Shown here piece by piece: positions 17,481 through 20,482 of a DNA stretch of 64,000 nt (its first letter is position 1; every line of letters begins with the position of its first letter). The stretch spans positions 62,001 through 126,000 of the forward strand of contig CALUHH010000002.1 in the NCBI GenBank assembly GCA_944320385.1. Reading direction: 5' to 3'. The position numbers and the translations under genes were made by a program. Origin of the DNA: an uncultured Atopobiaceae bacterium (GTDB lineage Bacteria > Actinomycetota > Coriobacteriia > Coriobacteriales > Atopobiaceae). The notes under the pieces were generated by a model that had not been told where the DNA came from, did no database searches, and worked only from the letters and a program-made list of their open reading frames with translations.

Positions 17481-18362
17481 TTACGCCTTGACGGGCTTGA
17501 ACTCGGTGCCGGTGATGATCTGGAACGCCTCCTGGTAGCGGGCGGACGTGCCCTCGATGACCTCGGCCGGGATGCGCGGCGGCTCGCCGGTCATGTCCCA
17601 GTTGGCGCGCAGCCAGTCGCGCACGTACTGCTTGTCGTAGCTCGGCTGGACCTTGCCCTCCTCGTAGGAGTCTGCCGGCCAGAAGCGGCTGGAGTCGGGC
17701 GTGAGGCACTCGTCGATGAGGGTGAGCCTGCCGTCGATGAAGCCAAACTCGAACTTGGTGTCGGCGATGATGATGCCCTGCTCGGCAGCGTAGTCGGCAG
17801 CGGCCTTGTAGATGGAGAGCGAGGCGTCGCGCAGCTGCTCGGCCACGTCGGTGCCCACGATCTCGCAGCAGCGCTCAAAGGAGATGTTCTCGTCGTGGTC
17901 GCCGAGCTCGGCCTTGGTGGACGGGGTGAAGATCGGCTCGGGAAGCTTGGAGGCCTCCGTCAGGCCGTCGGGCAGCTTGATGCCGCAGACGGTGCCGTCC
18001 TCGTCGTAGGTCTTCTTGCCGGAGCCGGTGAGGTAGCCGCGGACGATGCACTCGATGGGCACGGTCTGCGCCTTCTTCACGAGCATGGAGCGGCCCGCGA
18101 GGTAGTCGGCATAGGGCTTGAACTCCTCGGGCAGGTCTGCCACGTCACAGGAGATCATGTGGTTGGGGATGAGGTCGGCAAAGCGCTCGAACCAGAAGGC
18201 CGAGATGCGCGTGAGAATCTCACCCTTGTGCGGGATCTCGTCGGGCAGGATGAAGTCATACGCGCTGATGCGGTCGGACGCGACCATGAGGAGGCTGTCC
18301 CCGCAGTCGTAGATGTCCCTCACCTTGCCATGCGAATCCGGACGAAGCCCCATCTCGGCCAT
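17481..18362 (-). CDS. purC: Phosphoribosylaminoimidazole-succinocarboxamide synthase
   Basis: 293 aa SAICAR synthetase of the longer single-domain type. Family signatures are clear: GKVRDIYD at the start, LMVASDRISAYDFILP, and IIADTKFEFGF followed by LIDECLTPDSSRFW. It couples CAIR and aspartate using ATP in de novo purine synthesis. The start MAEMGLRPD is chosen because AGGGA precedes it; an in-frame ATG nine codons upstream is less supported. Upstream lies the 41-bp repeat array, which therefore sits in the purC promoter/leader region. Confidence 0.94.
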   Translation of the reverse strand: MAEMGLRPDSHGKVRDIYDCGDSLLMVASDRISAYDFILPDEIPHKGEILTRISAFWFERFADLIPNHMISCDVADLPEEFKPYADYLAGRSMLVKKAQTVPIECIVRGYLTGSGKKTYDEDGTVCGIKLPDGLTEASKLPEPIFTPSTKAELGDHDENISFERCCEIVGTDVAEQLRDASLSIYKAAADYAAEQGIIIADTKFEFGFIDGRLTLIDECLTPDSSRFWPADSYEEGKVQPSYDKQYVRDWLRANWDMTGEPPRIPAEVIEGTSARYQEAFQIITGTEFKPVKA

Positions 18363-18471
18363 GGTCGATTCCCTTCGACGTGTTTGCACTCAACCTCTTA
18401 GTATACCGTTCTCAAGCCAGTGGGTTCTTCTCCATGCGCAAACGGCCCCCCTCGCACGGAGACGCGGATGC

Positions 18472-18815
18472 GCTTAGGTTTTGCGCCTCGTCCAGCAATT
18501 CCGCGTTGCGGCGCTTAAGAATCGCGCTTCGTCCGAGCTGCGGGCTACAGCGTGCTTAGGTTATTCGCTTCGTCCGGCGTTTCGGGCTCGGCGCGCTTAA
18601 GAATCGAGGCCCGTCCGGGGACCGCGGCGGTTCCGTGCTTAAAGATCGCGCCCCATCCTGAAGGTGCGGCGCCCGGAGAGAGGCGTCCTCTCCGGACGAA
18701 GCCCGATTTATAAGCAAGCAGGCCCGTCCTTCTCGGACACAGGCGATTTCCTAAGCGAGAAGAACGGCCATCTCCAGACGCGGCACAATTCCTAAGCGCA
18801 GTCACAGCCCCACTG
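18472..18815. repeat. Array of eight degenerate repeats, 41-bp period, with an orientation switch
   Basis: GCTTA begins at 18472, 18513, 18554, 18595 and 18637 (steps 41, 41, 41, 42). Its reverse complement TAAGC begins at 18711, 18752 and 18793 (steps 41, 41). Aligned copies share about 23 bases: GCTTA, then G/A-rich AT bases, then CGCGC-like, then CGTCCG; the other 18 bases vary. The first five copies point right and the last three left. No open frame explains it. Period and strand switch suggest a selected array, for example protein-binding sites at four helical turns or a structured RNA. Confidence 0.75.
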
Positions 18816-18843
18816 CCCCTTATCTCGGTGAGCATCAAACCCA

Positions 18844-18962
18844 GCGCCGCACGCCGCGGATGCGGGCCCTTCTCAGCCGCGCGCAGTTCTGCAGCGCGCG
18901 CCCTTTGCGCGCGAAGCTGTCTGAGCGCGGCGAGAAGGGCCCGCATCCGCGGCGTGCGGCGC
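18844..18962 (-). terminator. Long inverted repeat at the 3' end of the sensor kinase gene
   Basis: A perfect 31-bp inverted repeat (18844-18874 with 18932-18962) encloses 57 bases. After a one-base bulge the stem continues (GCCGCGC / GCGCGGC), and the loop holds its own GCGCGC hairpin. The repeat touches the kinase stop codon. No U-run follows, so Rho-independent termination is uncertain; it could protect the 3' end or block read-through into purC. Confidence 0.6.
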
Positions 18963-20482
18963 TACTTGTCCTGCGGCTTGCGAGGGCGGCGCTGGGGGAT
19001 GCGCAGCGTGAAGGTGGTGCCCTTGCCGACCTCGGACTCGACGATGATCGTGCCGTTGTGACGGTCGACGATCTCCTTGGTGATGGCCAGGCCCACACCC
19101 AGGCCGCCACTCACGCGCTCGCGGCTCACGTCGGAGCGCCAGAAGCGCGCGAAGGTCTGCGGGATGTCCTCCTTGGCGATGCCGATGCCCGTGTCCTGCA
19201 CCGAGATGAGGATGTCGGAGCGGTCCTGGCGCAGGGACACCTTCACCCAGCCGTCGGGGTTGGTGTAGCGCATGGCGTTGCTCATGAGGTTGACGATGGC
19301 CTCGCGCAGCAGGTCGGGGTCGACGTCGGCGTAGAGCTCTCCGTGAGGGGTCTCGTCGACGTAGCGCAGGTGCAGGCCCTTCTCGTGGAAGAGCTGGTGC
19401 TGCGAGGAGACCAGGCTCTTGACGAGGTAGGCGACGTCGGTGCGCTCGCAGTTGAACTCGGTCGTGCCGTTCTCGAGGCGCGAGAGCTTGAGCATGGCGT
19501 CGATGAGGCGCGAGAGGCGGCGGACCTCGGAGGCCACGACCTCGAAGTGCTCGTCGTCGGCGGGCAGGACGCCGTCCTGCATGGCCTCCACCGTGGCCTG
19601 CATGGCCATGAGCGGGGTGCGCAGCTCGTGGGCCACGTCGCCGGTGAGGCGGTGCTCGAGCTTGATGTCGCGCTCGATGGTGCTCGCCATGTCGTCGAAG
19701 GTCTCGCCGAGCTGGCCGATCTCGTCCGGGCCGGTCACGCCCGTGCGGGCCGTGAGGTCGCCGTTTCTGATCTGCTTGGCGGTGGAGGTGATGCGCTGGA
19801 TGGGGCGCGCCATGCCGCGCGAGACGAAGTAGCCGATGACGCACGCGAGGATCGTGGCTATCGCGGCGGCGGTGGCGATGGCGCCGTAGGAGTTGGAGCG
19901 GAAGGAGGCGTCGGACTTGGTGAGCAGGGCGTCAGAGCCCAGGGCCCACAGCCGCACGGTGCCGACCTCCTCGCCGGAGGCGTTGACGATCGGCGAGGAG
20001 ACGAGCGCGCCCTGCGCCGTGGGCACCACCGACGGCGCGGTCGTGTGCCCGCGCGCGGCGCCCGGCGCCGTCGCCCAGGTGTCGTCGTAGAGGACGTGGC
20101 CGTCGGAGTCGGTGATCTGGACCACGATGTCCGACGAGAGGCTCGAGGCAGCGGCGGCGGCCTCGGCGGCCGCGGTGACGTCGATCTCGCCGTCGGCCTT
20201 GATGGTCGCCGAGATGCTCGCCGAGGTGGAGTCGGCGATCGCCTGCATGTTCTGGCGCGTGTAGGCCGTGAACTGACGCTCCCACACGATGGCCAGAACC
20301 ACGACGAGCACGACCGCCGTCATGACTGCCGTGAGGGCAAACGCCAGGGTCAGGCTCGTCGCATAGGGGCGCCCCCGCTTGGGCGAGGGCTTTATGGTGT
20401 TCCAGGTGCTGCGGGCGGAGCGCCGCTCGGGGGCGTCCTGCTCGGGGGTCTCGACGCCCCCCGTGTCAAAGCGCGCCGACAT
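18962..20482 (-). CDS. Two-component sensor histidine kinase
   Basis: 506 aa. A cytoplasmic N-terminus of 40 residues is followed by membrane segment 1 (43-66), an extracellular sensor domain of about 130 residues, membrane segment 2 (199-220), HAMP (221-275), and HisKA with phospho-acceptor His285 in GDVAHELRTPL. HATPase_c follows, with NLMSNAMRYTN, DTGIGI and GGLGVGLAI. The topology and short extracellular domain resemble PhoR/BaeS-type envelope sensors. The gene starts 12 bases after its response regulator. The signal is unknown. Confidence 0.92.
   Translation of the reverse strand: MSARFDTGGVETPEQDAPERRSARSTWNTIKPSPKRGRPYATSLTLAFALTAVMTAVVLVVVLAIVWERQFTAYTRQNMQAIADSTSASISATIKADGEIDVTAAAEAAAAASSLSSDIVVQITDSDGHVLYDDTWATAPGAARGHTTAPSVVPTAQGALVSSPIVNASGEEVGTVRLWALGSDALLTKSDASFRSNSYGAIATAAAIATILACVIGYFVSRGMARPIQRITSTAKQIRNGDLTARTGVTGPDEIGQLGETFDDMASTIERDIKLEHRLTGDVAHELRTPLMAMQATVEAMQDGVLPADDEHFEVVASEVRRLSRLIDAMLKLSRLENGTTEFNCERTDVAYLVKSLVSSQHQLFHEKGLHLRYVDETPHGELYADVDPDLLREAIVNLMSNAMRYTNPDGWVKVSLRQDRSDILISVQDTGIGIAKEDIPQTFARFWRSDVSRERVSGGLGVGLAITKEIVDRHNGTIIVESEVGKGTTFTLRIPQRRPRKPQDK

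Follow-up and report, generated by a model that had tools for sequence, protein, structure and literature searches.

The intergenic region upstream of purC carries one of about 60 arrays of a short unit repeated at a 41-bp pitch, which are dispersed between the genes of a single Atopobiaceae genome and whose two halves face each other across a central gap that varies in steps of one DNA helical turn. I give an even chance to the reading that each array is a DNA platform for a cooperatively bound protein, with an architectural or insulating role that is not specific to purC. The genome read (G000) is that of a gut bacterium, 2.24 Mb in 58 contigs, and the window, which here means the whole stretch of 64,000 nucleotides that was analysed, lies on contig C2. 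A search of the literature found no description of such arrays.

The window array and its genome-wide family

The window array comprises eight units (18472-18797), five forward and then three reverse, and lies between the end of a sensor histidine kinase gene (18962..20482; HisKA, HATPase_c and HAMP domains) and the start of purC (SAICAR synthetase, 17481..18389; PF01259, E 8.3e-78), both on the minus strand. All eight copies listed by a first-pass annotation were recovered, with GCTTA starting at 18472, 18513, 18554, 18595 and 18637, and TAAGC at 18711, 18752 and 18793. The forward cores are unit 1 at 18471..18495 (a position-weight match with its GCTTA anchor at 18472), unit 2 at 18512..18536 (anchor 18513, 41 bp past unit 1), unit 3 at 18553..18577 (18554, +41), unit 4 at 18594..18618 (18595, +41), and unit 5 at 18636..18660 (18637, +42). 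The reverse cores on the minus strand are unit 6 at 18692..18716 (anchor 18715), unit 7 at 18733..18757 (18756, 41 bp off unit 6), and unit 8 at 18774..18798 (18797, 41 bp off unit 7). The annotated spacing of 41 or 42 bp thus holds for same-strand neighbours (41, 41, 41, and 42 bp forward; 41 and 41 bp reverse), while the strand switch itself measures 78 bp from anchor to anchor; this convergent junction, with its central gap at 18661..18691, belongs to a 78-bp class common to 25 other arrays. The conserved part of each unit, put earlier at about 23 bp, is indeed conserved but closer to 25 bp long.

The window contains six same-strand GCTTA pairs at 41 or 42 bp, including a run of five, and 60 Markov-simulated windows gave a mean of 0.03 pairs (maximum 1) and a longest run of 2. 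Because simulated windows almost never give such pairs or runs, a chance origin is excluded. The array contains no coding sequence and is not a CRISPR, both as annotated: the units are ~69% alike, occur in two orientations, and have purC and a kinase gene as neighbours.

Searching the genome with the array region as a DNA query returned 68 matches. An iterated weight matrix seeded with the eight units of the window then identified 285 distinct units in the first genome stretches read; a 30-kb piece of the window, taken as a control, contained no unit scoring as high. The total in the G000 DNA read was 437 units in 60 groups, which include two lone units inside genes (probably chance) and several array halves split by contig ends. 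The annotation had named further arrays of the same period in this genome as its supporting test, and these ~60 arrays are a positive answer. The unit consensus is YGCTTAAGRATCGCGCCYCRTCCGG (25 bp), followed by a weakly conserved spacer of ~16 bp, and several of its positions are pyrimidine-only or purine-only, as is often the case at protein-DNA contacts.

The geometry of the arrays is strict. Same-strand neighbours are exactly 41 bp apart in 311 of 328 cases, the others being 42 bp (n=11), 40 or 43 bp (n=3), or double pitch (n=3), and the strand switches comprise 49 convergent (inward) and 0 divergent cases. The central gap, measured between the innermost anchors, was 77/78 bp in 29 arrays, 67/68 bp in 16, 98/99 bp in two, and 57 and 109 bp in one each. 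These five classes agree with a 10.5-bp period (vector length 0.993), that is, steps of one DNA helical turn, although they are not all independent since arrays derive from one another. A typical array has 7 to 10 units, about four a side, and the number differs among arrays. The neighbouring genes formed 15 convergent, 18 tandem, and 2 divergent pairs.

The proposed tie to purC is not supported: dozens of unrelated genes adjoin the same element, and purC and its -10-like box ACGGTATACT (18400..18409, minus strand) are conserved across most of the genus, in relatives that have no array. The window array lies outside this box and is not a purC-specific operator.

Constraint on the arrays and the proposed protein platform

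Spacer identity between arrays was 0.354 and therefore saturated, as 0.355 is expected from column composition alone, while core identity was 0.69 overall and 95-99% at the best columns. Core, pitch, and phase have outlasted spacer sequence, and the spacers kept their length after losing any trace of common descent. Drift alone is unlikely to account for this, because neutral spacers with no remaining similarity would be expected to vary in length as well; the annotation's view that the period is selected and does not reflect a recent duplication is borne out. Parts of arrays are near-copied elsewhere, meaning that units shuffle between arrays, and this helps to randomise spacers too. That the arrays are a functionless, decaying accident of tandem duplication is very unlikely: same-strand neighbours are somewhat more alike than distant units and the closest relative holds decayed remnants, as such a repeat would predict, but the saturated spacers go together with phased gaps, an exact pitch, and convergence at all 49 junctions.

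A role as RNA was also considered, in which the arrays would act as bidirectional terminators or form the 3'-end structures of RNAs transcribed from both flanks. Arrays are rare between divergent genes, and transcripts from both sides would encounter the units in one order, which are both in keeping with this reading. However, no stem covariation was detected by mutual information in the 285 units, where position dependencies were local only with no long-range pairing, mirrored units were hardly more alike than others (8.33 vs 7.81), and the gap steps match the helical repeat of DNA (10.5 bp). At some loci, moreover, an array is already preceded by ordinary hairpins with T runs. An Rfam search found only tRNAs in the window, and the array region gave weak chance matches, none at gathering score. 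The RNA-family option of the annotation was consequently dropped and a role as RNA is improbable. Nesting of arrays in hairpins was rejected as a general rule (permutation P 0.26).

Because of pitch, orientation, and phase, bound and joined half-arrays are the most economical reading, and the multi-site platform that the annotation had listed among its options, with binding sites about four helical turns apart, became the best-supported one. Here, a protein encoded elsewhere would recognise the non-palindromic 25-bp site, with about four copies bound per side, some four helical turns apart and on nearly the same helix face, and the two half-arrays would face each other across a phase-keeping gap that permits joint assembly. 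The ~60 platforms between genes, rare between divergent promoters, would then probably serve chromosome organisation or block transcription and topology across gene ends. I infer protein binding, cooperativity, and the architectural role from this geometry; at the sequence level, the strict pitch, orientation, and quantised gaps, kept while the spacers became saturated, point strongly to a protein assembly on multiple sites. Two findings count against the platform: two close relatives (G009 and G018) are almost array-free, so that its function is dispensable in the genus, and whole-array near-copies together with the lack of the window array in the same two genomes mean that arrays also move or get copied. 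More tentatively, the arrays may form an undescribed class of element, an inward-facing, helically phased array with ~60 copies per chromosome that would nucleate a symmetric insulator or organiser assembly and be selected while spacers and units turn over. Such a protein, if found, would reveal a new system of chromosome organisation or insulation in Actinomycetota, or else a new kind of cargo-free mobile element.

Several known systems share parts of this layout. BIME/REP sequences with their RAYT transposases are dispersed, intergenic, present in ~10^2 copies, clustered in both orientations, and hot spots for insertion sequences (PMC2817692, PMC1525189). The arrays are likewise dispersed between genes and targeted by insertion sequences, but their units are non-palindromic, with a consensus that is not self-complementary and no stem covariation within units, and they always point inward at a fixed pitch of 41 bp, whereas REP alternate. 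REP/RAYT was also rejected as the source of the arrays: RAYT-type (Y1_Tnp) genes are present in 28 of the 31 genomes, the majority of them array-free. G000 has four such RAYT-like genes (L192-L195), each flanked by palindromic hairpins of its own (e.g. GGGACAGTTACCCCGGTGGGACAG) that are unrelated to the unit sequence. The partition site sopC of plasmid F (parS/sopC type) consists of twelve 43-bp tandem repeats (PMC6238139). It resembles the arrays in having tandem sites at about four helical turns, with protein binding putative for the arrays, which differ in being chromosomal, in occupying ~60 loci, in having two inward halves, and in sites that are not inverted repeats. Neisserial intergenic mosaic elements (dRS3/NIME) are short, clustered intergenic repeats used by mobile elements, as are the arrays; they are not known to have a fixed pitch or helical phasing, and their sequence is unrelated to the units described here.

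Distribution and mobility of the arrays

A profile of two units was searched across the 31 genomes of the genus and gave at least 200 matches in G000, 22 in G016, 10 in G018, 8 in G009, and 3 in G010, one weak match each in G001 and G045, and none in the other 24. The Coriobacteriia-wide search proposed by the annotation, done here as a class-wide scan of 396 genomes from 153 genera, showed arrays only in this genus, and thus in one small clade with no spread through the class. The array-bearing G016, G009, and G018 are the nearest to G000 by histidine kinase identity (94%, 90%, and 88%; all others at most 83%), which makes the array a clade trait. The single array of G010, a copy of a G000 locus at 96% identity, was probably exchanged or is contaminating, and one array of G016 (L110) is nearly identical to its G000 counterpart. 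Phage and plasmid records gave no match. Viral carriage was rejected, as three single pattern matches on viral contigs all lacked units, and two matches from a GTDB-wide pattern scan, in Clostridia (L119) and Turicibacter (L121), were chance matches with no array.

The gap between purC and the kinase gene is 60-95 bp long in distant relatives, and 250 bp in G009 and 224 bp in G018, where it holds hairpins and no array. The window array is consequently most likely a gain of the G000 lineage. Its edges, CGGAGA and CCCACTG, resemble two pieces of one older hairpin arm, and this resemblance suggests an insertion; an energy test for a split hairpin at the window was not significant (P 0.30). Several sites of G016, the closest relative, are also empty: of its 13 matching sites, 4 retain a single degenerate unit or a mini-pair (P <=0.003 each) and the rest no unit at all, which reflects either array decay in G016 or amplification in G000. 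At one gene end, both G018 and G000 carry an array, and hardly any unit or spacer can be aligned between them. Near-copies were found at different sites, with L024 and L027 88% identical over 330 bp and L033 and L049 88% identical over 206 bp. Short stretches around some arrays (L038/L060/L062 and L100/L110) are 98-100% identical between species that are otherwise several percent apart, and these near-identical sequences suggest recent interspecies exchange.

The main rival explanation for the arrays is a non-autonomous, MITE-like mobile element, made of two transposon ends of transposase-site arrays with almost nothing between them, in which core and phase would be kept because only arrays on which the transposase can assemble get copied. 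Such an origin is possible, though I would not expect it. The restriction to one clade, array numbers that differ between sister species, the empty purC/kinase gap of G009 and G018, the edges of the window array, and the near-copies at different sites are all consistent with it, and the ends of Tn7 and Mu likewise carry repeated, bipartite transposase sites of ~22 bp in two inverted sets. Unlike those ends, the arrays have no cargo and no conserved tips: no terminal inverted repeats were found, and nothing is conserved beyond the outermost unit, where the alignment holds no information. Where array sites were compared with their G016 counterparts, the majority too diverged, no clean target duplication was seen, and the saturated spacers indicate that most arrays are old. 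Unit number varies from array to array, and the energy test above lends the split hairpin no significance. No cognate transposase was found, with the reservation that the search for Mu_transpos_C (TnsB/Mu-type) had silent controls and is therefore uninformative. Neighbouring open reading frames, checked for a cis-encoded factor, were mostly housekeeping genes with nothing in common. A MutH-domain protein (Sau3AI-like; L105, 1722-3056) directly adjoins one array.

Insertion sequences and other repeats at the arrays

Many G000 contigs end inside arrays. All 20 ends of an IS element beginning TGTTGTGTGCCA... abut the CTTAAG-like core of a unit, and 17 of the 20 have another intact unit alongside. 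A related copy in G019 belongs to the IS481 family (NF033577, E 5e-84). This IS481-type family (L211-L230, L237-L264) differs in its insertion sites, which are CTAG-like in most species and CTTAAG in G000 and G001. The CTTAAG preference belongs to the element itself, since in G001 the copy occupies a CTTAAG that is not part of an array. In the fetched DNA of the G000 genome, 165 of 172 CTTAAG sites lie within arrays, and the only two in the window are in units 2 and 4 of its array. The element is a clear example of an IS481-family insertion sequence for which another repeat provides the only sites in this genome. For a second IS element, 5 of the 6 ends fall within arrays. REP sequences are IS targets as well (PMC1525189). 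If the arrays are protein platforms, IS elements may use them as safe landing sites.

Two further repeats were noted in the window. The inverted repeat reported next to the array is present, but its arms are perfect over 32 bp, not 31: it is a long hairpin at 18843..18963 (arms 18843-18874 and 18932-18963, 57-nt loop), located 3' of the histidine kinase gene, separate from the array. It belongs to a second dispersed family, which relatives lacking the array carry as well and whose members (including L124 and L125, between the kinase gene and purC) vary in arm sequence by copy and species with complementarity kept, and share a related loop-end sequence, CTTCTC...GAGAAG. The window holds 36 copies of the 9-mer GAGAAGRAC (e.g. 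18424-18432 and 18756-18764), of which 17 fall where no gene is predicted, and GAGAAGAAC reaches 5.6 times its order-4 Markov expectation. The 9-mer is often found as inverted pairs, in gene-end hairpins and array spacers, and its density and layout recall, by analogy, DNA uptake sequences.
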